Shown: positions 9,705 to 43,226 of the stretch, piece after piece
Layout: the number at the start of each line of letters is the position of its first letter
Position numbering within the stretch: the stretch's first letter is position 1
Source of the DNA: Candidatus Woesearchaeota archaeon
GTDB lineage: Archaea; Nanobdellota; Nanobdellia; Woesearchaeales; UBA11576
Length of the DNA: 64,000 bases
Direction of reading: 5' to 3'
Assembly: GCA_018675335.1 (NCBI GenBank)
Contig: JABGYH010000003.1
Span: 1-64,000, forward strand
The notes under the pieces: generated by a model
What the model saw: only the letters and a program-made list of their open reading frames with translations
Database searches by the model: none
What the model was told of the DNA's origin: nothing
Made by a program: the position numbers and the translations under genes

Positions 9705-12700
9705 ATGACAAAAAATATGTTTATTTGCTTGTTTACGTTAATACTACTTGTTTTTAGCGTAGTTTCTGTTTCAGCAGCACCAAGCTTAAATGATTATCCA
9801 GACATTTTCAAACAAGGAAATGATGTGGAAGTAAATATCATCGCACCAGACAATGCAGATTATTTAGATATGGGAGCTGCATATTCTCTACGAAATACAA
9901 TCAAAGCACAGAATAATTGTTCTGATGTAAATGTTGACTGTGAAGTTAGAGTATATGGCGCAGATCATGCAGATATTCCTTTAGGAAATGCAATCTGGTT
10001 AGGAAATGATTGTAATAATCACTTCATCACTGCGTTTATTCCAGGAGCTTGTCCAAACGGTCAAAGTGTTTTAGAACAAATGCCAGAATCCATGGTCTTA
10101 TTAGACAATGTTGGCGGCCAACAAGTATTATTAATCCTAGGAGCAACACAATACGATTACTTATTAGGAGAACAACTAATTGAAAAATACCAAAATTTTT
10201 CTAGTTATTTAACAGATGACGCATTTATTCTATCAGATATGTTTTTGGACACACTAAAAATTTATCCATCAGATAATGCATCTGCTCAAGAACTAACACT
10301 TGAAAAAGCACATTCACTAAGTGTTTCAACTAACTTCAAAGTTCTAAATAACAATACACTAAATGTAGGGGATTTCTCAGTTGAATTAACAAATTTAACA
10401 ATGGGAAATGAAGTAATTGATGCTAGTACTCAAGCAACATTTAACACCAACAAATTTAGTTTAAACGGACTTGAAGAAAAAGAAATTAGTTTAACCCTTA
10501 TTGTTCCTGATCTACAAAAAGCAGGAGATTATACTGGAGATATTCTATTCAAACATAAAGAAAATATTTATGTGAATTTACCAGTAACTTTGACTGTAAC
10601 ATCCACCCCCGATGTAGCAGTAAGTTATGTAACTCCTGACAATTTCTTACAAGGATCAACCCAAGAAATGCAATTAAGTATTGCAAATATTGGAAATGAT
10701 GATATCATCGGAACATATGAAATGACTGATTTCATGAAAGGAAACGATCAATTATTATTTTATCCACAAAATGGAGCGTTCCCAATTTTTATTGATTACT
10801 TAAATCAAACAGATAATAAAAACGTTACTCTTGATTTAACATTCGTTGCAGCAAATGATCAACCTGTAGGAACATACAGTTCAGTAATGACATTAAATTA
10901 CGAATTAAACAAAACAAAAACTGCAAACGTATATGTAACAATTCAAGAAGTAAATGATGCAATCACCATAACTCAAGAACCAAACACAGTATCAGTAAGT
11001 CAAGGAGATCAAACAACATTTAATGTTACTCTACAAAACTTAGGAAATATTGATGTAAGTGGAACTTATAGTATGAATGATAAATTCAAAAGCGGAGCAA
11101 ATGAAATTAGCTTTAGCGGAATGAGCACAAGCGGATCATTTGATTTAAATTATATTAATAACACAGACAAAGGAGATAAAACCTACTCAGTAGACGTAAT
11201 AGTTCCAACTGATGCACCTGCAGGATTATACACTGCAAACTTAAATGTAACTGCCGCAGATAATAACTATACAAAACAACTAAAGTTTACTGTTTTAGAA
11301 TCTACTCCTAGCGTTTTATTAAATGTAGGAAGTTCACCTAGCACACCACCAGGACAAACAGTTCAACTAAATGTTTCAATCACCAATGATGGAAACACCG
11401 ATGTTAGCGGAACATATGTTTTACCTGAATTTTTAACAAGTGCTAATGGAGATAACCTAAGTTATACAGTTACAAACGGTGCAAAAACTGGAAGTTTCAG
11501 CTTACAATATGATTCAACCACACAAGCACAAAAAGTATTCGCACTAGAATTTAGTGTTCCTGAAAGTCAAGCACAAACAACATACACTGGAGACTTTAAT
11601 GTAAGTTATGAAAATGCAATTTTTGCAAAATCAGGAAATGAAACTGCACAACTAAGTGTTGTTGTAGAACCAATCTTGACAAGCATGAGTACATTAAGTA
11701 CAACTTCTGGAAAAGTAGTTCTTGATAGAACAGTTCCTCAAGTAATTACTGATTCAGGAAACAACGCAGGATTTGTTGTAAAAAACAATGGAAACTGGCC
11801 ATTAACAATTACAGTTCAGAAAAACGACTTAACATTAAACGCAAATAATGTTATTAGTAAAGATAACTTAGTAGTTGATGTGACAAGTTTTACTATCGGT
11901 GTTGGCGAAGAAAAGAACTTAACAATTTCAACAACTTTAAGTGCACAAAATTGGAAATTATTAACCAGCGGAACATATACAGGAAATTTAGTTCTTGCAC
12001 ACTCTGCGGAAAATTATACAGTTCCAGTAAGTTATGTACTTGAAAACGCAGTTTCAGCAGTTACCATGGGCAATGTAAATTATCCAGAATCAGACGATGA
12101 TGACTTAGTTAATGGAAGTGTTACAGTAACAAATACTGGAGCCGTAACATTAAGTAATTTAGTATTCGAAACAACTGCTGCAGCAACTACAATTACAAAC
12201 TTAGCACAGTTACCAAGCACACTTGCACCTGCTGAAAGTTTTAGTGTTAATTTAGAAACACAACTTAGCTCAAACTTTACTGGTGGAAAAGATGTTAAAA
12301 TTGGAGACTTAAAATTAACTTCAAATAAAATCAACAAAACAAGTGGAATCTATACAAACATCCAAGGAAAACTTGAAATCACCAAAGTTAAATTTGGCGG
12401 AAGTTCAGTTGATTCAGATGGAGATACATTCAGTAAAGAATTTGAACCTGGCGACACATTTGAAGTCATAGTTTATTTAGAAAACTTATTCACCGATGAT
12501 GAAGACATAAATATTGAAGACATCGAAATTGACGTAGTAGTTAAAGGTGTTGGCGAAGACGAAGATGACGTAAGTGGAGACGCAGAAATTAGTAAACTAA
12601 AAGCAGATGAAAAAGACAGCGACACAATTACTTGGGATGAAGACAATGAAATCGACTTTGATTCCGAAAGTGGAAAACACGAAGTAACAGTAAAAGTATC

Positions 12701-33858: not shown

Positions 33859-33869
33859 CCGGACTTGAA
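33859..33869. repeat. Extra T-arm-like 11-mer outside the left attachment site
   Basis: CCGGACTTGAA here is identical to 42231-42241, part of the tRNA-Tyr T-arm on the minus strand. It lies only four bases from the left attachment repeat, on the chromosomal side. It may be a relic of an older integration at the same tRNA. Confidence 0.4.
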
Positions 33870-33872
33870 ATG

Positions 33873-33895
33873 AAGATGTATCCCCGTCCCCGGAC
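33873..33895. repeat. Left attachment site (23-bp direct repeat)
   Basis: The 23-bp sequence AAGATGTATCCCCGTC followed by CCCGGAC is identical to 42214-42236. It carries a copy of the 3' end of tRNA-Tyr (T-stem 3' strand and acceptor 3' strand on the minus strand) plus 8 flanking bases. Just inside it lies a perfect inverted repeat, ACGATA-AC-TATCGT (33896-33909), a candidate integrase binding site. Confidence 0.9.
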
Positions 33896-33919
33896 ACGAT
33901 AACTATCGTTCTAAGCCCG

Positions 33920-33954
33920 CACCATTTTTTACACTTTTTTTATAAATGGTGTAA
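33920..33954. promoter_or_regulatory. Inverted repeats at the left end of the element
   Basis: CACCATTT (33920-33927) and AAATGGTG (33944-33951) are perfect inverted arms, with TTACAC/GTGTAA nested beside them, directly upstream of the integrase gene. They could be integrase arm sites or an operator for the integrase promoter. Confidence 0.4.
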
Positions 33955-34005
33955 GCCAGTTTAAGTATTTAAACATCTAATTCTTTTATAGGTTTAGAAA
34001 ACAAA

Positions 34006-35250
34006 ATGAAAACCGAACAAGAAATAGACCTTTATCCACAAAGGAAAAAAGAATTTGAAGCCAAACGCAAAGAAATAGAAAACAAATGTAATGAAACCAA
34101 CAAAAAATTATTATTTGACTTTGGAAACCATTTGTTAAGCATAGGCAACATAAAGTATACAATAGCTAAGCGTTGGAGAACTTTAATTCTTATTGACCAA
34201 ATGTTACAACAGTCATTTTTAGAAGCAAACATATTTGACTGGAGAGCAACCATCGCACAAATTAATAGTTTGGAACTATCTGAAGCCTCAAAAGCAATAC
34301 ATAGGCGTTACTTAAAACAATTCTTTAATTGGTATGAAGACTATGACAACAGACTGATAACTAGTGACATACAACAAAGAACAGAAGTAATAAGAATTTA
34401 CAAATTTTTTAAAAAAGATGTGAGTTCTTCCTACAAAAAACCAAAAATAGACCCTTCAGAAGTCATTAATGATGACGATGTTTCTCAAATTCTTGAAAAC
34501 GGTTGCAGCAACAACAGAGAAAGAGCATTATTTTCTTTATTACACGAAAGCGGAATGCGGGTTGGAGAACTATTACGCATAAGAATAAAAAATATTGTTT
34601 TCAATTCTGATGGGACTGCAAGCATTTTCATTCCAGATGGTAAAACTGGCGAACGAGGTCCATTCTTATTTGTTGACTGCGTACCTTATTTAAGAAGATA
34701 TTTAGACTTTCACATCAACAAAGAAGACCCTCGCGCATTATTCTGGTACAGTTTAAAAAAAACTACAAATGGAGTTCCAGACCATATGAGCTATCCAGCA
34801 GTTAGAAAAATTTTACAAAAAATTTTCAAGCGCGCAGGAATAAATAAAAAGTGTAATGCTCATTGGTTCAGACATAGCAGAACTAGCTTAGACATCTCAA
34901 AATATACTGACTCAATAACGTGTAAAAAAATGGGTTGGGTAATAGGAAGCAAACAGATAGCAACATACTCCCACCTAAATAATAAACCTGTTAATGACGC
35001 TATAAGACTACAAAAAGGTTTGACATCTGAAGAAGAAGTTGAGAAGTCAAAAAAATGTAGTTGTGGATATTATATCCAACCCAAAATTAAATATTGTAGC
35101 AATTGCGGAAGACCGAGAGATGTGCAAGTTGCATTAACTGAACAGCAAAAAGTCAAAGAAGCTACTGAAATGTTAATGAAGAAATGGGTTGAAGTAATGG
35201 GAGATAGTAAAGAACGAGACTTGTTCGAGTTATTCAAAAAAAGTAAATAA
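34006..35250 (+). CDS. Tyrosine recombinase (integrase) with C-terminal zinc ribbon
   Basis: 414 residues. Residues about 30-130 are an N-terminal SAM-like DNA-binding domain. The catalytic domain (about 150-340) has Arg185 in SGMRVGEL, HWFRH (H286, R289), and the nucleophile Tyr321 in ATYSHL. After it, CSCGYYIQPKIKYCSNCG forms a four-cysteine zinc ribbon, an addition not found in classical XerC/XerD or lambda integrases. It would recombine the 23-bp attachment sites in tRNA-Tyr. The gene starts about 110 bases inside the left end of the element and reads inward, the usual place for an integrase. Start ATG 34006. Confidence 0.93.
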   Translation: MKTEQEIDLYPQRKKEFEAKRKEIENKCNETNKKLLFDFGNHLLSIGNIKYTIAKRWRTLILIDQMLQQSFLEANIFDWRATIAQINSLELSEASKAIHRRYLKQFFNWYEDYDNRLITSDIQQRTEVIRIYKFFKKDVSSSYKKPKIDPSEVINDDDVSQILENGCSNNRERALFSLLHESGMRVGELLRIRIKNIVFNSDGTASIFIPDGKTGERGPFLFVDCVPYLRRYLDFHINKEDPRALFWYSLKKTTNGVPDHMSYPAVRKILQKIFKRAGINKKCNAHWFRHSRTSLDISKYTDSITCKKMGWVIGSKQIATYSHLNNKPVNDAIRLQKGLTSEEEVEKSKKCSCGYYIQPKIKYCSNCGRPRDVQVALTEQQKVKEATEMLMKKWVEVMGDSKERDLFELFKKSK

Positions 35251-35387
35251 ACCTCCCGTAAATAATTAGGCTTCGCTAGCTTTTATAAATAAACTGGTGA
35301 ATACCCCCCCTATTTTTACCTATTAAACAAACACCTGTTTGTTTACTCAAAAACTTTAAATAACACAACTCCATAACTAAGTATAAA

Positions 35388-35912
35388 TTGGACTTAATTT
35401 ATATTAAACAGTGGTGTGAATTTAAAATTATAGCTCCTGTTCTATTTGTTTTGTTTGGAATTATGATATTAATTTCGCCTGAAATGTATTTAAGCAGAAA
35501 ACAATTAAGTGTAGTGTTCATCATATGTTCATTAAGTTGGTTAATAAACAATATTAAACAGAAATATTATATTCAAATTTCAAATAAAACTTACAATTTT
35601 AAGTCAAAGAAAGAAGCGTTTATTGCAGGGTTTTTTAAAATTAAAAAAATAAAGTACATTTATGAAAAACCATTAAAAATAGGTTCTCAAAAATTAAAAC
35701 CAGACTTTTATTTGCCTGAATATGATGTGTATGTTGAATATTGGGGTTTATTTAATTCAAATTTTGAATATAAAAAAGCTTGTAACCATAAAAGGAAATT
35801 ATATGAGGAAGAAGGTATAAAATTAGTTGAACTTTATCCTGATAACCTAGCAACATATGACACTCTAAACCGAAAATTTATGGAAAGACTTCTTAATGTT
35901 CTTAAAAAATGA
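35388..35912 (+). CDS. Membrane-tethered PD-(D/E)xK-like nuclease
   Basis: 174 residues from TTG 35388. TTTAAATA (35355-35362) 26-33 bases upstream supports a leaderless TTG start. Two hydrophobic helices (about 13-30 and 40-54) are followed by a cytoplasmic domain. That domain has KIGSQKLKPDFYLPEYDVYVEYWGL and a later KRKLYEEEGIKLVELYP. PDFYLPEY-x2-YVEYWG plus a downstream Lys is the pattern of a restriction-endonuclease-like (PD-D/ExK) fold seen in helicase-associated and DUF559-like nucleases. Tethering such a nuclease to the membrane is unusual. In this mobile element it might act in DNA transfer, superinfection exclusion or plasmid processing; none is proven. Confidence 0.65.
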   Translation: MDLIYIKQWCEFKIIAPVLFVLFGIMILISPEMYLSRKQLSVVFIICSLSWLINNIKQKYYIQISNKTYNFKSKKEAFIAGFFKIKKIKYIYEKPLKIGSQKLKPDFYLPEYDVYVEYWGLFNSNFEYKKACNHKRKLYEEEGIKLVELYPDNLATYDTLNRKFMERLLNVLKK

Positions 35913-35927
35913 AAAACGAAAGTTATA

Positions 35928-36788
35928 ATGGGGTATAAAATGGCTAGAAAAAGTTTATTATTCTACGTGTTCATATCTTTTTTTTTATTTAGCGTATTCG
36001 CATTTTTTTTTCCAAGAGTGCTTGCAGCCCCAATTACTATTATTCCTTTAGCAATATTATTCAAATACATAATAGGAACTAATTGGAAAGACTCATTCAA
36101 ATTAGGAGCTATTAACTGGGTTTGGATGGCAATTATGTCAATTTTTGTTATGATGACTGAATTAAATTTTTTAATACAAGGCCTAAACTCGCCTAATATT
36201 GGCGTAATGTGGGTTTTTTTAGTTTTAGTTATAGGAATACCTCTCACTACAATAATTATTAATTGGAAAGGAAATAAACACTTTGACTCTAGTCTTTTTG
36301 ATAAACTTAGTAATAACTTATCAAATAAACATAATTCATCTAATAAAACACATTCTCATCACAAACATAAGTTAGCTAAAAAAATAAACAAAAACTCAAT
36401 AAAAAACTTTTTTATTTGGTTTGCTACATTTTCAGTTGGAATTTATATTGCAATATTCTCGCTGGAATTTTTTAAACTAAAAAGCATATTAGTTATTGTT
36501 TTATTATCTGGTTTAATAATTGAAGTCGTAAGTAAATTAATGCAAATTTTTGTTTTTGACCAACGTTTTATTGTTAATAGACGGTTTGCTTTTTGGGTTT
36601 TTGTTCAGAGTATTTCTTTTTTGATAGGTTCAACAATACTTTCAAAAATACCTTCAAGCTTTATTATAAGTATAATAAAAGAAATAAAATATGTTCCAAT
36701 TTTTAATTCAATTTTTGTGGGTTTAATTATAACTATTATCGGACACTTAGTTTGGAAAGCTAGAATTGAAAAAAAAATATTTAATTAA
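35928..36788 (+). CDS. Element-encoded integral membrane protein
   Basis: 286 residues. Three hydrophobic helices occur in the first 115 residues. A hydrophilic His/Asn/Lys/Ser-rich loop (about 120-160, including HSHHKHKLAKK) follows, and then four more helices. Starts at ATG 35928 or ATG 35940 are both possible. It follows the membrane nuclease by 15 bases and probably shares its transcript, so the two may form a membrane complex. It is not a recognised transporter. Very high A+T and Ile/Phe content reflect membrane composition. Confidence 0.7.
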   Translation: MGYKMARKSLLFYVFISFFLFSVFAFFFPRVLAAPITIIPLAILFKYIIGTNWKDSFKLGAINWVWMAIMSIFVMMTELNFLIQGLNSPNIGVMWVFLVLVIGIPLTTIIINWKGNKHFDSSLFDKLSNNLSNKHNSSNKTHSHHKHKLAKKINKNSIKNFFIWFATFSVGIYIAIFSLEFFKLKSILVIVLLSGLIIEVVSKLMQIFVFDQRFIVNRRFAFWVFVQSISFLIGSTILSKIPSSFIISIIKEIKYVPIFNSIFVGLIITIIGHLVWKARIEKKIFN

Positions 36789-36850
36789 ATTTTTAAGATA
36801 TGTATTTAAAAAATAACAAATAAATAAAATTTATATAAAATATAAAATTA

Positions 36851-37222
36851 TTAACCTACGTAATTCTTTTTTGTTTTATCAAATAACATATTAAACTCAC
36901 CATCAGATGGCGCATCATAAAATGTAATTGTTTCTAACCAGCTTTGGCCATCTTTATCTAATGCTTCTATTATTCTTACAGGCCTACCAAAACATTGTTG
37001 GATAATAACTTTCTTTTCTGCAATACTCAAACAAGGAAGTTCTTTTAACATACTCTCCATTACTTTAGGTTTACTAAAAGGTACAGAATACTTAATAGGT
37101 TCTTGCGTGTGGCGCTTAAACAATTCCTTCCAACCTTTCTCCCTAACAAAAAAGAACCACGCAAACATCACAGAACTACCTGCAAACGTAACAGTTAATA
37201 ATATGGTATCAGTTGTTATCAT
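36851..37222 (-). CDS. Element-encoded single-helix membrane protein
   Basis: 123 residues with one N-terminal membrane helix (about 5-26, ILLTVTFAGSSVMFAWFFF), a basic segment, and a small alpha/beta cytoplasmic domain. No family recognised. Its start overlaps the serine recombinase stop by ATGA, so it is translated after the recombinase from the same minus-strand message. It may anchor a complex at the membrane or act as an accessory to the recombinase. Confidence 0.65.
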   Translation of the reverse strand: MITTDTILLTVTFAGSSVMFAWFFFVREKGWKELFKRHTQEPIKYSVPFSKPKVMESMLKELPCLSIAEKKVIIQQCFGRPVRIIEALDKDGQSWLETITFYDAPSDGEFNMLFDKTKKNYVG

Positions 37223-37758
37223 TCTTTAACCAGTTCTTTTTTCTTCTTTTTTTCATTATTCCAACGCAACCAATAACCTGACTTCCTTCTTACTTTTTTA
37301 TCCTTACTACCTTTAGGCCTACCCAATATTTTCCCCTTAGCTTTCAAATGTTGTAGCTTAGTAATTATACGTTCACTAATTAATTCACGTTCCAATTCTG
37401 CAACTGCACCAATAATTTGAATAAAGAACATTCCTTGCGCTGTGCGAGTATCTACTTCAGGACTTAAGCAAATGAACTGCACTCCTTTCTTATTGAACTC
37501 CTCAACCAATTGTATTAAATGCTTTAAACTTCTGCCAAGCCTATCCAATTTGTAAACCATAATTGCATTATATTCTCCAGCTCTAACTGCTTGCATTAAC
37601 ACATCTAGTTGTTGCCTATTAGTTTTTGTTCCTGAAATTTTTTCACTATATACTGAGTACGCCCAACCCTTAGCCTTACATCTATTAACTAAAGGTTCTA
37701 TTTGTTGTTCAAGTGTTTGTTCTTCAGTGCTTACTCTCGCATATATTGCTACATTCAT
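37219..37758 (-). CDS. Serine recombinase (resolvase/invertase family)
   Basis: 179 residues. The N-terminal IYARVSTEEQ has the catalytic Ser10 with Arg8. VYKLDRLGRS supplies the catalytic Asp/Arg set, and the long helix FFIQIIGAVAELERELISERI is the E-helix. The C-terminal part has GRPKGSKDKK and is basic but short of a full helix-turn-helix. It could resolve plasmid multimers or invert a segment. No IS607-like TnpB gene is nearby, so a transposase role is unlikely. A short 19-codon ORF (37765-37824) just upstream may be a leader. Confidence 0.9.
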   Translation of the reverse strand: MNVAIYARVSTEEQTLEQQIEPLVNRCKAKGWAYSVYSEKISGTKTNRQQLDVLMQAVRAGEYNAIMVYKLDRLGRSLKHLIQLVEEFNKKGVQFICLSPEVDTRTAQGMFFIQIIGAVAELERELISERIITKLQHLKAKGKILGRPKGSKDKKVRRKSGYWLRWNNEKKKKKELVKE

Positions 37759-37891
37759 TTTCTTTCACCATACTTCAAACTCCTGTTCCGTTTGCACATC
37801 CATAATAACAATTCGTTTCATCATCAACTCACATTCTTTTTATAAAAAATATCTCCACTCGTACATTAGTATAATTATAACGCCGAAACCC

Positions 37892-38009
37892 ACCCGTTTT
37901 CACCCATTTTAACCGACTCATTAATACTTTCTTTCGTTACGTTAAACGCAAACAGCACAGATAAGTAATTTATAATGTCCGTTGATGGGGGGTTAAACCC
38001 GTTTTCACC
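37892..38009. repeat. Direct repeats in the recombinase-HTH gap (iteron-like)
   Basis: The 13-mer ACCCGTTTTCACC occurs at 37892-37904 and 37997-38009 in the gap between the recombinase and the small HTH gene, which is otherwise AT-rich. Two copies are few for an iteron array, but the position between replication and recombination genes suits an origin, operator or resolution site. Confidence 0.4.
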
Positions 38010-38022
38010 AGCATTACTTCTG

Positions 38023-38166
38023 CTATTTCCCACTCTCTAAAACATTTAGCGCGTGGTTTTTAACAGCAGTTAAAATAAAATTCTGTTTTGAAACGCCACA
38101 CCTAGATATTGCGCTTTGCACCCAACCTTGTCCAAGTAACAACTCCAATTCTTCATACTCATTCAT
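38023..38166 (-). CDS. 47-residue HTH-like microprotein
   Basis: An ORF from ATG 38166 to TAG 38023. The sequence LLLGQGWVQSAISRCGVSKQNFILTAVKN has the spacing of a helix-turn-helix (two helices around a Gly-Val turn), suggesting DNA binding. Its start overlaps the stop of the upstream zinc microprotein by four bases, so it belongs to the element's minus-strand operon downstream of mcm. Confidence 0.6.
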   Translation of the reverse strand: MNEYEELELLLGQGWVQSAISRCGVSKQNFILTAVKNHALNVLESGK

Positions 38167-38288
38167 TTCTTTACACCCCTCAAATAGTTATTCATACAAC
38201 GTATTGAACAGAAAGCCACACCATCAAATTCGTAATAGCAAGGTAAGTCTCCGCAAGCGTAACACTCAGCTAAACTTTTGTCCCCCAT
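38163..38288 (-). CDS. 41-residue treble-clef-like zinc microprotein
   Basis: An ORF from ATG 38288 to TGA 38163, encoding CYACGDLPCYYEFDGVAFC and a following SIRC. The CxxC and CxxxC pairs would bind zinc. The start overlaps the mcm stop as TGATG, implying coupled translation. Small zinc proteins of this type often act as adaptors or DNA-binding factors. The position right after mcm suggests a replication accessory, which is inference. Confidence 0.6.
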   Translation of the reverse strand: MGDKSLAECYACGDLPCYYEFDGVAFCSIRCMNNYLRGVKK

Positions 38289-40045
38289 CATAGAACCTCT
38301 TCCTCTTCAACAATGTTGTTAGAATTTGCTTCGTCAATGAAATTAAAACAAGAGTTCAATAAATAAAATGCAGTCATAACATCATCTTTAGAAACAAATT
38401 CTGCTAACCTGAGCTTTGCATTAGCTGTGCTCAAACGCCGTAAAGACTCAAACGTTCTTGGGTTCGCTCTCAAATTACTTTTTTGATAACTCGCATTTCT
38501 AATTTTTTGATATAATTTTTTTGAAAATTCATTAAGTTCATCAGTCCATTTAATTTTATGTGAAGTGCAAAACAACAAATATTTTTTTAAAAAAAGTTCA
38601 TCAAAACAAGGCGTACTTTTTTCTCTAGAAATAATTGTTTCAGCAATTTTTTTATCATTAGAACTTGGAATATCTTTCAAAAAGAAAATTAAGTCAAACC
38701 TATCTAACAGCGTTGAATTTATGTTGAGCTGTTCAAATAAAGAATTATCTTTATCAAAATATCCTTCTTTAGGGTTGCAAATAGCAAAAACACCCACTTT
38801 ACACGGTAACGTTCCTGAAACAGTTGCCTTCGATATGTGAATTTCTTGTGACGCAAGTGCACTTTGCAAACTCTGCAATTCTTCTGGCCTCAATTTATCT
38901 ATTTCGTCTAAAACTACATGGCCATTATTGCATAACGGTAACAACCCTGCTTGGATAGTCCAACCACCTGTTAGCTCATCACGCAATACAGTAGCAGTTA
39001 AACCAACTCCCGAACTTGACTCACCACTTGCAATACGACATTTAGGGCTAATTTTTTTAAAAAACTTAGCCAAACAACTTTTCCCAATGCCTGGTTCTCC
39101 AGAAACTAACAAATTCAAGTCATTCCTAGAAAACTTATCTTTACTTCCCCCAACTAAACACAACATTAAAGCTTTTTTCACATTTTCGTGGCCGTAAATT
39201 CCTGGTGCGAAACTTTCAATAAGTTTTTTTTCAAAATTTAATTCTTTACTTTTTTTTATAAAAAGCTCACGTTCTTCAGGTTTCAAGACATCAAAAAAAT
39301 TTTCAGTTAAAATTTCAAAAGAATTTACTTTAATTAAAGTATCAAAATGCGCTAATTTCTCTCTATCTCTGGAAATAATAGGAACTTTCCTAACTTCACC
39401 TACAACCTTTATTTTGCTTCCTGGAGGGCTATTCATATCAAGCAAGTGACTTGTTAAGTCTTTTTCCAAAATTAATTTTATTTGTTTTGGAGCAAAACCT
39501 TTGAAAGTCTCCAAACTTTCCTCCAATAACAATAGTTGTTCATCTATTAATTTTGAACTAATTTCACGTAAAAAACCGTTATTCCCGCAACTACATTTTT
39601 TAAAAAATTTCAATTTTTCACCAAAATATTCAAACACTATAATATTCCTACAAAGACTACATTCCTTTTTGCTCGCAACTAATTTTGGGCGAACATTACT
39701 TTTCTGTTTAATTATACCTTCCAAAACAATTAATTTATCTAAATTCTCACTTCGTAATTCTGAAATATTTATTTCACAGCTTTTGGGCAAATTAACTAAC
39801 CTAACCTCAAATTCTAATAAATTATATTTTTTTAAAATTATTAGCTCGCCAATTTCCAAACTTGTTTGAAAATTATCTAAAATATAATTAGCAAATTCTG
39901 GTTCAAATTTCATAATTTTATTAAAATTAATATTCATCCAAAAATTTTTTAACCGTATCTGGTTCTCTAATGCTTCTAAACAATTGTTTTCGATAAAATT
40001 TTCCCAACAACTTACAACATCGGACGTTTTCATTTTGTTAAACAC
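38288..40045 (-). CDS. mcm: MCM-family replicative helicase (element-encoded)
   Basis: 585 residues. The N-terminal domain holds a zinc site (CSLC ... CSCG). The AAA+ domain has Walker A GEPGIGKS (316-323), Walker B HVVLDEIDKL, sensor AICNPKEGYF and the arginine finger motif STLLDRFDLIFFL. The C-terminal winged helix is short. MCM hexamers unwind duplex DNA ahead of the fork using ATP. At 585 residues it is shorter than the roughly 650-700 of chromosomal archaeal MCMs, typical of element copies. A start at 40045 or 40033 is possible. It overlaps the winged-helix/zinc gene upstream, so the two are coupled and probably form the element's replication module. Confidence 0.93.
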   Translation of the reverse strand: MFNKMKTSDVVSCWENFIENNCLEALENQIRLKNFWMNINFNKIMKFEPEFANYILDNFQTSLEIGELIILKKYNLLEFEVRLVNLPKSCEINISELRSENLDKLIVLEGIIKQKSNVRPKLVASKKECSLCRNIIVFEYFGEKLKFFKKCSCGNNGFLREISSKLIDEQLLLLEESLETFKGFAPKQIKLILEKDLTSHLLDMNSPPGSKIKVVGEVRKVPIISRDREKLAHFDTLIKVNSFEILTENFFDVLKPEERELFIKKSKELNFEKKLIESFAPGIYGHENVKKALMLCLVGGSKDKFSRNDLNLLVSGEPGIGKSCLAKFFKKISPKCRIASGESSSGVGLTATVLRDELTGGWTIQAGLLPLCNNGHVVLDEIDKLRPEELQSLQSALASQEIHISKATVSGTLPCKVGVFAICNPKEGYFDKDNSLFEQLNINSTLLDRFDLIFFLKDIPSSNDKKIAETIISREKSTPCFDELFLKKYLLFCTSHKIKWTDELNEFSKKLYQKIRNASYQKSNLRANPRTFESLRRLSTANAKLRLAEFVSKDDVMTAFYLLNSCFNFIDEANSNNIVEEEEVL

Positions 40046-40734
40046 CTTTCAACTAATTTTTTATTATATTGTGTATCTGGTTTGCAACTAGAATGAGATA
40101 AAAGACCATATTCCTCCCGCATATTTTGGTGGGTTAAAATGTGTTCCTTGCATATGCAGCAAGTTCCAACAATTTGTTCTCTATATTTTTTTTCTTGAAT
40201 TAATTTATTTTCTTTCAATTGTTGGAATTTTTCAAATTTTTTTTTGAAATTTCGAATATTTATTTGTTCAGACTCAGATAATTGTGAGTACATTTCTTCG
40301 CGAGGTAAGTTTATTTTTGAACTCCACCCACTTAAAGTTCGAATAGAAAGGTTGGGCTTAATTTTTTTTGAAAATTTAGCATAAGTTTTGAACTCTTCAG
40401 AATTTTTATTTGTTTCTTCAACTAACCCCGCGTCTTTTAGTACGCGGAGCGAATGAGATACATCAAACCTATGTTTAGCAGAATGAATAAATTCTAATAA
40501 CTGCGCGACACTTAACACGCGTAGTTCTTGCAAACACGCTAAAACTTTAATATTTAAAGGTTTAACCAATATATTGCAAAGACCTGCTAGTTTAGATAAA
40601 TATTCTAAACTTTTTAGTTTTGAAAAATTAGTATCTAAGTATTTTATTAACACTACTACTACTTCGCGTATTTTACTAGTAGTAGTTAAGTTATTTAACC
40701 CACACATACTTTTTTCTGAAGAACTAGAACTCAT
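40030..40734 (-). CDS. Winged-helix and zinc-finger protein, candidate replication initiator
   Basis: 234 residues. Residues about 55-115 form a winged helix (LSVAQLLEFIHSAKHRFDVSHSLRVLKDAGLVEET). A Lys/Glu-rich helical middle follows, then a C-terminal zinc site CCICKEHILTHQ...LLSHSSC. Upstream of and overlapping mcm, it is well placed to recruit MCM to the element's origin. An inverted repeat lies inside its coding start (40652-40661 and 40677-40686). A repressor is an alternative reading. The 5' end contains a run of Ser codons and VVVVL that derives from this repeat. Confidence 0.65.
   Translation of the reverse strand: MSSSSSEKSMCGLNNLTTTSKIREVVVVLIKYLDTNFSKLKSLEYLSKLAGLCNILVKPLNIKVLACLQELRVLSVAQLLEFIHSAKHRFDVSHSLRVLKDAGLVEETNKNSEEFKTYAKFSKKIKPNLSIRTLSGWSSKINLPREEMYSQLSESEQINIRNFKKKFEKFQQLKENKLIQEKKYREQIVGTCCICKEHILTHQNMREEYGLLSHSSCKPDTQYNKKLVERCLTK
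40652..40686. repeat. Inverted repeat inside the initiator candidate gene
   Basis: ACTACTACTA (40652-40661) and TAGTAGTAGT (40677-40686) are perfect 10-bp arms around a 15-base centre. Trinucleotide ACT/AGT runs within an initiator gene can serve as binding sites for the encoded protein and as an origin. Confidence 0.45.
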
Positions 40735-40931
40735 TGTAAGTCCTCTTTAAAAATTCTGTTTGTAGGTTCTAAACTTATAACACATCTTTTAGCTATAGTG
40801 TATGTGTGTTTATTAGTTCGAAATTTTAAAAAGAAACTATCTTCTGATACCAATAAACCAAATAAAATTTTAGCAGGCTCAGCTGATGAGGTTTTATACT
40901 TGAGTTTTTTGCACATTTGTTCGTTCTTCAT
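40731..40931 (-). CDS. Element-encoded 66-residue protein
   Basis: 66 residues, basic and beta-rich in its second half (FFLKFRTNKHTYTIAKRCVISL), with no recognised family. It overlaps the initiator candidate start by four bases, and its own start lies inside the 39-residue ORF upstream. It could be a small regulatory or nucleic-acid-binding protein of the replication operon. Confidence 0.5.
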   Translation of the reverse strand: MKNEQMCKKLKYKTSSAEPAKILFGLLVSEDSFFLKFRTNKHTYTIAKRCVISLEPTNRIFKEDLQ

Positions 40932-41013
40932 TTTTTCGTTTAAATTCTAAATATTTGTTTAGCATTTGCAATTCTTGCGGCAACTGTTTAAAAATTCGGT
41001 TTTCAAACTCCAT
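40894..41013 (-). CDS. 39-residue charged microprotein
   Basis: An ORF from ATG 41013 to TAA 40894, encoding a single charged helix (FKQLPQELQMLNKYLEFKRKNEER). It overlaps the AbrB-like gene at its start and the 66-residue gene at its end. The density of overlaps suggests a compact operon, but the small size makes expression uncertain. Confidence 0.4.
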   Translation of the reverse strand: MEFENRIFKQLPQELQMLNKYLEFKRKNEERTNVQKTQV

Positions 41014-41197
41014 CAAACACCACCTTTTTTTTAACAGGTTCAATTGTGAGTTTTACTTTTTCACCAACTTCTTCTAAATGTAATTCTACCTCATCGTGTT
41101 TTTTAAGTTCATTTGCATTGATGAAAACTTTGGGTAGCGTAATTAGAAGTGAATAATTCATATTGACTATTTTCCTATTTTTTAGCTTAATTACCAT
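41003..41197 (-). CDS. AbrB/SpoVT-like DNA-binding regulator
   Basis: 64 residues with the swapped-hairpin core SLLITLPKVFINANELKKHDEVELH, typical of AbrB-like domains found in archaeal regulators and antitoxins. It is the first gene of the minus-strand operon leading to mcm. It faces a palindromic operator in the divergent promoter region (41233-41259) and is likely its repressor. A minus-strand TATA (plus ATAAATT, 41221-41227) lies about 25-30 bases upstream of its ATG. Confidence 0.8.
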   Translation of the reverse strand: MVIKLKNRKIVNMNYSLLITLPKVFINANELKKHDEVELHLEEVGEKVKLTIEPVKKKVVFDGV

Positions 41198-41232
41198 ACA
41201 GTTATTGAATTTATTGAACTATAAATTATGAC

Positions 41233-41259
41233 TTATACCATTTATACCAGAGGTATAAA
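41233..41259. promoter_or_regulatory. Operator palindrome between divergent element promoters
   Basis: TTTATACC-AGA-GGTATAAA (41241-41259) is a perfect 8-bp inverted repeat, and a third half-site TTATACCA precedes it (41233-41240). It lies between the TATA of the AbrB-like gene (minus, near 41221-41227) and the TATA of the rightward gene (TTTATATA, 41271-41278). A repressor bound here could block both. The AbrB-like protein is the natural candidate. Confidence 0.65.
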
Positions 41260-41301
41260 AAAAAGAAAAGTTTATATAGAAGTTTTGTTACAGTATTTAT
41301 T

Positions 41302-42153
41302 ATGGTAAATACCCCAATAGATAAAAGTGAACAAATACTACTATTTATTTGCGGGAATGAAGAAAAACATAAATATTTTCAAAAATGTGAAGAAAAACTA
41401 AAATTAAATAATGCACAAAGAAAAAGTTTATTTCAAAAAAAAACTAAAACTAATTATGAAAAAAAACTACTTAATGACTTCAAAAAATTATTCAAAACAT
41501 TCTCACACCCATATTTAACTCCTGCGAACATAATAACATCTTCATTAAAAATACCAGGAACAACAGTTCACAAATTACTTAACGACCTGGAACAAAAAAA
41601 ATTAGTCTTTAAACAAGAAAAACTATGGGGAATAAAAAGAGACGCTCAAACACTCATTAAATTAACCGACCGCTTCTATAAAAAAAAATTAATGCCTAAA
41701 TTAATACAAACCGACTATATAAAAGGGCTCGTATTTGGCTTAACCACAGAACCAGTTACGGAATTTGATAAAAAACGAAAGATAAATACTCGTTTTGAAA
41801 AAGTTTTAGAAAATAACTTCGGACATTTACTTAGCCAAGAAAAACAATTGGGAGAATTATATATACCTTCAGTAATAGATAAAAATAAAAATTTACTAAT
41901 GAAAAACCCGTTAGCAATTATAAAACTAGGTTTGCAAATTAAAAAAGAAGACATAGAGGAAATAACAAAATACATAACAACATTATTTTTCAATAAAGAA
42001 ATTAACGAAGTTAAATGCAAAGAACTAGCTTTTTTTTCATTTTTACTATATTATTTAATAAAACACTTAGACTTACCAGAAATAAATAAAAAAGAAACGC
42101 AAAATATTATCCACACATTAAAAAAAGAAATTAAAAAAGCAATTAACCAATGA
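41302..42153 (+). CDS. Element-encoded helical, winged-helix-like protein
   Basis: 283 residues, basic and almost wholly helical. Residues about 70-115 (LTPANIITSSLKIPGTTVHKLLNDLEQKKLVFKQEKLWGIKRD) have the shape of a winged helix. The C-terminal half has no known motif. TTTATATA at 41271-41278 lies 24-31 bases before the ATG, so the mRNA is leaderless and the operator palindrome sits just upstream. It is divergent from the AbrB-like gene. A regulatory or partition-type role is possible. It is the last gene before the right attachment site. Confidence 0.7.
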   Translation: MVNTPIDKSEQILLFICGNEEKHKYFQKCEEKLKLNNAQRKSLFQKKTKTNYEKKLLNDFKKLFKTFSHPYLTPANIITSSLKIPGTTVHKLLNDLEQKKLVFKQEKLWGIKRDAQTLIKLTDRFYKKKLMPKLIQTDYIKGLVFGLTTEPVTEFDKKRKINTRFEKVLENNFGHLLSQEKQLGELYIPSVIDKNKNLLMKNPLAIIKLGLQIKKEDIEEITKYITTLFFNKEINEVKCKELAFFSFLLYYLIKHLDLPEINKKETQNIIHTLKKEIKKAINQ

Positions 42154-42176
42154 GGTAAAAAAACCGTAAGAAATAG

Positions 42177-42190
42177 TTGTTTATAAACAA
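42177..42190. promoter_or_regulatory. Palindrome near the right end of the element
   Basis: TTGTTTATAAACAA is a perfect 14-base palindrome 24 bases inside the right attachment site. It may be an integrase arm site or a termination element of the gene ending at 42153. Confidence 0.4.
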
Positions 42191-42213
42191 ACTGGTTAGG
42201 GCTTAGGCCAATA

Positions 42214-42236
42214 AAGATGTATCCCCGTCCCCGGAC
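42214..42236. repeat. Right attachment site (23-bp direct repeat)
   Basis: Identical to 33873-33895. Bases 42222-42236 are the last 15 bases of the tRNA-Tyr gene (minus strand), so integration restored the tRNA 3' end from the element's copy. Confidence 0.9.
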
Positions 42237-42352
42237 TTGAACCAGGAACCTCGCGGTTACGGCTGATTGCCTTTCATCCTTAGTCATAAAAATTAATGAC
42301 CACGTCAGACAACTTCTACAGCCGCGCGCTCTACCAATTGAGCTAGACGGGG
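42222..42352 (-). tRNA. tRNA-Tyr (GUA) with intron
   Basis: On the minus strand: acceptor CCCCGUC (from 42352) pairs with GACGGGG (42229-42223), and the discriminator is A (42222). The D-arm is GCUC-AAUUGGUA-GAGC, the anticodon stem CGCGG/CCGCG with loop CUGUAGA (anticodon GUA), and the T-arm CCUGG-UUCAAGU-CCGGG. Exons are 42316-42352 and 42222-42257, about 73 bases when joined. A 58-base intron (42258-42315) sits at the canonical place after position 37. It can form a GGCUG/CAGCC helix with the exon and an inner GTCAT/ATGAC hairpin, fitting a bulge-helix-bulge splice site. A TATA-like TATTTAAA (42383-42390) lies upstream. Its 3' end is the element's attachment site. Confidence 0.93.
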
Positions 42353-42418: not shown

Positions 42419-42760
42419 TCAATTCACACAGTATTTAAACTTTTTACAATAGTCTTTATGATTAAACCAATCAAGAATAATTACAAACAAATTATCTTCA
42501 TCAGTTTCAATTGTAAATATTAATCTGAATGCATTAGGAAGATTAATTTTATACAAATTAGTTACTTCATACTTAATAACATATGCATCAGGCCAATTAG
42601 TTTTAGGAATTTTCACACCTGATAAATGATTTATTTTAAGTACATCAAAAGCTTTGTTAAGCTGATTTAATAGTTTTATCTCCTCATACTTACCAGAGCT
42701 CAAACTTAGAAATTTTTTCTGAACTTGTTTAGAAATAAAACTAACACAAACTTCCTTCAT
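42419..42760 (-). CDS. RelE/ParE-like toxin
   Basis: 113 residues. The C-terminal AFRLIFTIETDEDNLFVIILDWFNHKDYCKKF has the RelE/ParE-superfamily ending (a R-L-x-F strand, then an IxxxDxxxHxxY segment). These proteins cleave mRNA on ribosomes or poison gyrase. Its ATG overlaps the partner gene stop by four bases, the normal antitoxin-toxin order. It lies outside the integrated element, beside the tRNA-Tyr gene. Confidence 0.65.
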   Translation of the reverse strand: MKEVCVSFISKQVQKKFLSLSSGKYEEIKLLNQLNKAFDVLKINHLSGVKIPKTNWPDAYVIKYEVTNLYKINLPNAFRLIFTIETDEDNLFVIILDWFNHKDYCKKFKYCVN

Positions 42761-43023
42761 CTTATTCTCAAGTTTTGAGAAATCATATTTTTTATTCTAG
42801 CAGGATTAAATACCCAAATAACAATACCTTCAGAGTCTACAATTATTTTCCCAGAGTCTTCTAAATAACCTAAAATCACCTGATATGTTTGATACATCAT
42901 TTTTTTAGGTAATTTTTTCCAAAGCTGATATTTTCCAAACTCTTGACTATATTGTTTAATTGTTTCTTCAACCATTTTTACAGTATCCAAACGAGGGTTA
43001 TGCAGAATTAATCCATTAGCCAT
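42757..43023 (-). CDS. Antitoxin-like partner protein
   Basis: 88 residues from ATG 43023. The frame reaches 43071, but the extra part translates the TATA region, so the internal ATG is preferred. The sequence contains YQLWKKLPKKMMYQTYQVILGYLEDSGKIIVDSEGIVIWVFNP, a small winged-helix-like domain often encoded before RelE-like toxins in archaea. It probably neutralises the toxin and represses the pair. ATTTATTATTATATAAG about 25-40 bases upstream can serve as the promoter. Confidence 0.6.
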   Translation of the reverse strand: MANGLILHNPRLDTVKMVEETIKQYSQEFGKYQLWKKLPKKMMYQTYQVILGYLEDSGKIIVDSEGIVIWVFNPARIKNMISQNLRIR

Positions 43024-43226
43024 CTTATATGAACTTATATAATAATAAATATTTAAATGTTTTGTTCTCAAAACCTAAAAACAAAATAAATTCACCTCAA
43101 ATAAATACTTTCAGCAGAAACAACCGGAAAAAATTACGGTTAGTGCGCAAATTCTCATTAAAAGATTCTTAAGTGAAATTATCTTACCAACATATAATGA
43201 GAAATATATCTCAAGGAGGGATAAAA

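Follow-up and report, generated by a model that had tools for sequence, protein, structure and literature searches.

A probable cryptic integrative plasmid with its own MCM helicase at a tRNA-Tyr gene of Woesearchaeales

The stretch of DNA analysed here, referred to as the window, comprises 64,000 nucleotides from a Candidatus Woesearchaeota archaeon (assembly GCA_018675335.1, contig JABGYH010000003.1, positions 1 to 64,000). Between positions 33873 and 42236 it holds a block of genes flanked by attachment (att) repeats, one of which forms the 3' end of a tRNA-Tyr gene (Table 1), and we regard this block as an integrated mobile element with very high confidence. An earlier note, made without database searches, had pointed to a perfect 23-bp repeat with its right copy in tRNA-Tyr, and to a tyrosine integrase, a serine recombinase, an MCM helicase and an AbrB-like regulator between the two copies. 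The repeat proved to be exact and unique in the genome, the tRNA is intact with anticodon GUA once its intron is removed, and the four genes are confirmed by their Pfam families (PF00589, PF00239, PF00493 and PF04014, respectively). Likewise, the DPANN-like genome that the note suspected agrees with the relatives of the integrase, which come from Candidatus Woesearchaeota.

Boundaries, target and recombinases

The repeat (AAGATGTATCCCCGTCCCCGGAC) is identical in its two copies over 23 bp and at 26 of 27 positions over 27 bp. Its chance expectation in the window is 0, and the whole genome (1,706,412 bases) contains just these two copies when up to three mismatches are allowed. The right copy consists of the last 15 nt of the tRNA gene and the 8 nt beyond, and the element, counting one copy of the repeat, is 8,341 bp long. 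The tRNA gene matches Rfam RF00005 (50.5 bits, E 1.8e-8); ARAGORN overlooks it when run without introns and detects it when introns are allowed, under the label Asn. Taking out an intron at the canonical 37/38 position leaves a mature tRNA with anticodon GUA and the pair C1-G72. These two features together are the archaeal tRNA-Tyr signature, and the gene is therefore assigned to tRNA-Tyr. In a genome of the same genus (G002), the tRNA-Tyr gene (locus L175, about 11785-11990) seems to contain two introns, the second of them in the T arm directly ahead of TTCAAGTCCGG, and is not detected by ARAGORN.

The same 11-nt piece of tRNA-Tyr (TTCAAGTCCGG, minus strand) occurs outside the left att copy at 33859-33869, where it may be an older att scar or a chance match. 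Extra att-like copies are also present in two related loci (L061 and L201), and the three cases suggest repeated use of such sites. Since tRNA fragments can persist at integration sites after an element has been lost, the 11-nt relic could be taken to mean that an ordinary chromosomal region is flanked here by a chance or relic fragment and that there is no discrete element. That explanation is largely refuted and we give it hardly any credence, because the exact repeat is unique in 1.7 Mb, an intact integrase lies beside it, starting 111 bp inward of the left copy, and relatives have the same layout with repeats of their own. Neither of the two objections foreseen by the earlier note holds: these genes were seen in no relative lacking the repeats, and what is repeated is not a stray tRNA fragment.

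The closest solved structures to the tyrosine integrase are XerA/XerH/XerC-like, and R185, K213, H286, R289 and Y321, together with the tail cysteines, are invariant in nine integrase sequences. As judged from these residues, the integrase is intact, with the full catalytic set. The serine recombinase is composed of a resolvase/invertase catalytic domain and a short basic tail (GRPKGS); no C-terminal helix-turn-helix (HTH) was recognised in it, and its best solved relatives are DNA invertases. Short-form serine recombinases (168-196 aa) are also found in four integrase loci of other genomes, so that the possession of two recombinases is not peculiar to the element in the window.

Table 1. Features of the element and its integration target, in order along the window (aa, amino acids; ORF, open reading frame; wHTH, winged helix-turn-helix)
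Feature	Position	Strand	Evidence
att copy distal to the tRNA, 23 bp	33873..33895	-	exact repeat; equals tRNA 3' end + 8 nt
Tyrosine integrase, 414 aa, C-terminal zinc ribbon	34006..35250	+	PF00589 2.5e-13
174-aa protein, N-terminal hydrophobic segments (by eye), PD-(D/E)XK-like nuclease region	35388..35912	+	PADLOC HEAT_CxxC_PDDEXK 1.9e-17
286-aa protein, several hydrophobic segments (by eye)	35928..36788	+	no Pfam above cut-off, no PHROG or NCBIfam match
123-aa protein, N-terminal hydrophobic segment	36851..37222	-	no family in Pfam/PHROG/NCBIfam; 4-nt overlap with end of serine recombinase frame
Serine recombinase, 179 aa	37219..37758	-	PF00239 1.5e-43
Possible microproteins, 52/47/42 aa	37875-38033, 38023-38166, 38163-38291	-	ORFs only, overlapping frames after MCM
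MCM helicase, 585 aa	38288..40045	-	PF00493 1e-57, PF17207 2.2e-13, PF17855 1.5e-14, PF14551 0.0088
234-aa wHTH protein, C-terminal CxxC motif	40030..40734	-	ArsR-type HTH 5.2e-5, Csa3 2.8e-8 (PADLOC)
66-aa protein	40731..40931	-	63-aa homologue, 39% identity, same position in relative L178
49-aa ORF, position of relatives' small peptide	40894..41043	-	positional
AbrB/MazE-like DNA-binding protein, 64 aa, first gene of leftward operon	41003..41197	-	PF04014 1.9e-5
Divergent promoter region, candidate AbrB operator	41198..41301		TTATACCA direct repeats, TTTATACC/GGTATAAA inverted repeat
283-aa weakly wHTH-like protein by att site	41302..42153	+	MarR_2 0.018, below cut-off; position of relatives' 276-379-aa gene
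att copy forming 3' end of tRNA-Tyr	42214..42236	-	exact 23-bp repeat
tRNA-Tyr(GUA), 58-nt intron, intact integration target	42222..42352	-	Rfam and mature 73-nt form

The MCM operon and the remaining genes

The element MCM has the oligonucleotide/oligosaccharide-binding (OB) fold, the AAA+ domain and the lid, with a weak match to the N domain (E 0.0088). It stops after the lid (which ends at 567 of 585 aa) and is without the C-terminal extension (a wHTH) of chromosomal MCMs, which measure 660-706 aa in the woesearchaeal set compared. It is not the MCM of the host, because the chromosomal copy is a separate gene on contig 7 and has an intein; in that gene (G000, contig 7, about 388874-391987) the intein interrupts the Walker A motif at its lysine (GDPGSGK / S). 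The element protein is 35-38% identical to woesearchaeal chromosomal MCMs, as against 23-29% to those of viruses and plasmids of other archaea, and in quick trees it falls among the former on a long branch; no closer relative was found in 278 genomes of the order or 262 of the phylum. Two constrained trees were compared with the free tree in the approximately unbiased (AU) test, one grouping the element MCM with the family of the host (p 0.71) and the other keeping it apart from every woesearchaeal MCM (p 0.83); neither was rejected, and both had a higher likelihood than the free tree. Given this outcome and the long branch, the claim that the gene was captured from this host was dropped. A second MCM-like ATPase of about 390 aa, 27-30% identical to the element MCM, is present in four genomes of the same family (loci L021-L023 and L027).

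From AbrB through the 49-aa ORF, the 66-aa gene, the 234-aa gene and MCM to the next ORF, successive frames overlap by a few to some forty bases (16 nt between the 234-aa gene and MCM), and this arrangement therefore suggests a single operon. The 234-aa wHTH protein is closest to Csa3/ArsR-type regulators, and its best other match in the order has an E of 6e-4. It is the candidate initiator of the earlier note, and may be an initiator or loader of MCM, or else a regulator. The 66-aa protein is possibly an LSm/SH3-like small barrel, as seen by eye only, and its profile found no match among solved structures. In another genome (G108, L232 9213-14023), a similar protein is encoded close to a large protein and a possible terminase small subunit, and this region is perhaps a tailed provirus of that woesearchaeon. 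No family was recognised for the small ORFs, and the 47-aa and 42-aa ORFs after MCM have no relatives in the loci searched.

Next to the tRNA, the AbrB gene and the 283-aa gene run divergently and make up an end module, to which the 49-aa ORF may also belong. A profile built from six relatives, leaving out the window, matches the AbrB of the window at 1.4e-14. A similar profile of the small peptide of six relatives (LPxE-like) ranks the 49-aa ORF 12th of 4,783 ORFs with a weak score (7.7 bits, E 0.7). Among the 278 genomes of the order and 262 of the phylum, the 283-aa protein has no clear relative. The predicted structures of this protein and of the 234-aa one had a low mean pLDDT (predicted local distance difference test; 39 and 43, respectively) and were not used.

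The Pfam, PHROGs and NCBIfam scans covered ten element proteins. The 174-aa protein, called a membrane nuclease in the earlier note, indeed combines N-terminal hydrophobic segments and a PD-(D/E)XK-like region; it also matches a PHROG Holliday junction resolvase (4.7e-5) and is probably cargo. No match to virion, conjugation or rolling-circle genes was obtained in these scans, in line with the lack of capsid genes observed earlier. An alternative is that the element is a provirus, for example a pleolipovirus-like one whose particle is a vesicle without a capsid, with recognisable virion genes lost or never present. In its favour, the nearest viral integrases are those of Geoglobus and Archaeoglobus pleolipoviruses (28% identity), and three element proteins have hydrophobic segments. 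Nevertheless, those viruses carry VP3-like proteins, VP4-like fusion proteins of ~500 aa and a rolling-circle Rep, whereas the element has no such PHROG match nor a match to any PHROG structural family, and apart from the integrase and MCM none of its proteins exceeds 286 aa, leaving nothing of VP4 or Rep size. We therefore consider a provirus improbable.

Just outside the element, at 42419-43071, are two overlapping genes (113 and 104 aa) for a RelE-type toxin-like protein (PADLOC CARF_RelE 1.1e-4) and a partner; the pair is found again in G002 (L147) and in G092 (L231).

Related loci in Woesearchaeales and the nature of the element

The integrase family is present in 48 of 288 genomes of the order (E < 1e-20; best to 1.6e-80), and the named records that have it are mostly Candidatus Woesearchaeota. 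The integrase of the window is 30-37% identical to eight relatives of its family (A1). In many loci the integrase adjoins a tRNA 3' end, and in several this end is repeated 5-14 kb downstream (tRNA-Gly, 12 bp; tRNA-Ala, 17 bp and 13 bp; tRNA-Cys, 16 bp; tRNA-Lys, 16 bp). In the window, L061 and L194 the tRNA and the integrase stand at opposite ends; in L058, L209 and L210 they are neighbours. At the far end of the closer loci, an AbrB-like gene runs back toward the integrase, divergent from a gene by the att site for a protein of about 280-380 aa and separated from it by roughly 50-145 bp; in L178 the contig ends inside the divergent gene. The AbrB family is shared by the window and six other loci (L058, L061, L065, L178, L209 and L210), and the small peptide of this neighbourhood is common to L058, L061, L066, L178, L194 and L209. 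The divergent proteins are barely alike in sequence, and a few pairs reach E 1e-4 in a comparison of eight.

The genes that lie between integrase and end module differ: L178 encodes a RecA-like ATPase there (AAA_25, 6.8e-28, Pfam), L194 a Prim-Pol protein (3.9e-13, Pfam) with DUF5906, and the window MCM with the 234-aa wHTH protein. Large proteins with P-loop-like stretches, seen by eye and belonging to no Pfam family, are encoded in L061 and L210. For neither the 234-aa nor the 283-aa protein does any match within the order go beyond an E of about 1e-3, which makes the element of the window so far unique. Searches of viral contigs with MCM and with these two proteins found no related locus, nor did a search of genome contigs with MCM; when the integrase alignment was used against viruses, a single distant hit came up. 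In a tRNA-Ser element of another woesearchaeon (L204, 2762-4407), a small membrane protein that is VirB2/TrbC-like by eye is followed by a secreted-looking protein; these are possible DNA-transfer genes.

We think it likely that the element is a cryptic integrative plasmid of Woesearchaeales, belonging to a modular family in which replication genes are exchanged between constant ends. Confidence in its membership of that family is high for the integrase and AbrB and moderate for the other end-module genes. By analogy with the pT26-2 family (PMC6972569), replication genes would have been exchanged among the woesearchaeal elements. In the mechanism that we propose, the zinc-ribbon integrase would join the 23-bp att site of a circular form to the end of the tRNA-Tyr gene, so that the tRNA is made whole again and a 23-bp fragment stays behind at the opposite boundary. 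At 41198-41301, the promoters of the AbrB gene and of its divergent neighbour are probably both repressed by the AbrB-like protein, and release from this repression would allow the overlapping operon to be made. The 234-aa wHTH protein would then recruit or load the element MCM at an origin on the excised circle, with the host replisome doing the rest, and the serine recombinase would probably resolve multimers or invert DNA. Replication driven by MCM and switching by AbrB are plausible proposals.

Several observations weigh against the plasmid interpretation. The earlier note had proposed a search of related assemblies for the same gene order and an uninterrupted tRNA-Tyr locus; six relatives with a common layout were found, but no genome searched has the same element. 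No empty syntenic tRNA-Tyr site was found, and in the same-genus genome G002 the neighbours of tRNA-Tyr are different and synteny is broken. The 49-aa peptide and the 283-aa protein agree with those of the relatives mainly by position, and in some relatives the repeat is as short as 12-13 bp. Moreover, no replication gene was recognised in L058, L065 and L209 (part seen), though all three have the end module, and no iterons or clear origin were found in the element itself.

This last point also speaks for a non-replicating genomic island, in which MCM is a remnant or cargo and integrase-driven excision is followed only by passive transfer. Consistent with such an island, the MCM is without the C-terminal extension of its chromosomal counterparts, and other integrase loci (e.g., L196, L202, L204 and L208) have no replication gene recognised by eye. 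On the other hand, all core MCM domains are there, the gene sits in a tightly overlapping operon with a wHTH gene, and archaeal elements commonly have MCM as a replication protein (PMC6563490, PMC6972569). An island of this type is accordingly unlikely, and a replicating plasmid remains our preferred interpretation.

A broader and distinctly more tentative proposal is that Woesearchaeales have a plasmid family of their own, in which the end module serves as a control switch for unrelated replication systems (MCM, PrimPol or a RecA-like ATPase). The window would contain the MCM version, the DNA-binding role of the missing MCM C-terminus having moved to a separate wHTH protein. MCM and its wHTH partner would then form a simple two-protein loading system. 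With replication genes swapped while the control module stays the same, the family would also offer a natural experiment on the minimal needs of an archaeal replicon.

Comparison with known systems

Hardly any mobile elements have been described from DPANN archaea. The searchable literature yielded no paper that joins Woesearchaeota with an integrase, a tRNA gene and a mobile element, and a review of archaeal tyrosine recombinases makes no mention of DPANN. A recognisable family with mapped att sites thus provides a handle for finding more such elements, for linking them to hosts and for later genetic tools.

MCM is well known as a replication protein of archaeal elements, as Krupovic et al. 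2010 is cited for in PMC6563490, PMC5862659 and PMC6972569. In Thaumarchaeota, cryptic integrated elements (CIE) encoding MCM include NitGar-E6 and NitEve-E3 (PMC6563490). These resemble the present element in being integrated, in being called cryptic and in encoding MCM, which in their case is presumed to act in replication by recruiting the replisome of the host (PMC6563490), but they belong to another phylum, AbrB is unmentioned in PMC6563490, and the likeness is taken from the published description. The plasmid pFS01 of Methanocaldococcus sp. FS406-22 (NC_013888.1, 12.2 kb) is likewise a small circular replicon with an integrase, in which a small HTH protein directly precedes MCM, and it carries small hypothetical and zinc-finger genes and an IS607-type gene. 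However, its MCM is 25% identical to that of the element, no AbrB is annotated, the gene order is different and the host is a methanogen.

The pT26-2 family consists of tRNA-targeting integrative plasmids that exchange their replication proteins, often MCM (PMC6972569), and one MCM plasmid of Thermococcales, TbaCH5_IP2, is integrated in tRNA-Tyr (PMC6972569). That family differs in its Type I/II integrases of Thermococcales and Methanococcales; it has a conserved core, and is likened here on MCM, integrase and tRNA target as given in PMC6972569 only. Also close are the woesearchaeal elements of L178 and L194, which share the integrase family, have a tRNA gene as target, carry AbrB, small-peptide genes or both, and end in a divergent gene at the far side; they differ in having a RecA-like ATPase (L178) or PrimPol (L194) in place of MCM. 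The earlier note had called the element undescribed-looking. As a kind it is known, given the MCM elements and MCM-integrase plasmids of other archaea (the thaumarchaeal CIE, TbaCH5_IP2 and pFS01), and its integrase and layout recur in relatives; within the searchable papers, the Woesearchaeales family, its conserved end module of AbrB and divergent gene, and its differing replication genes appear to be new.

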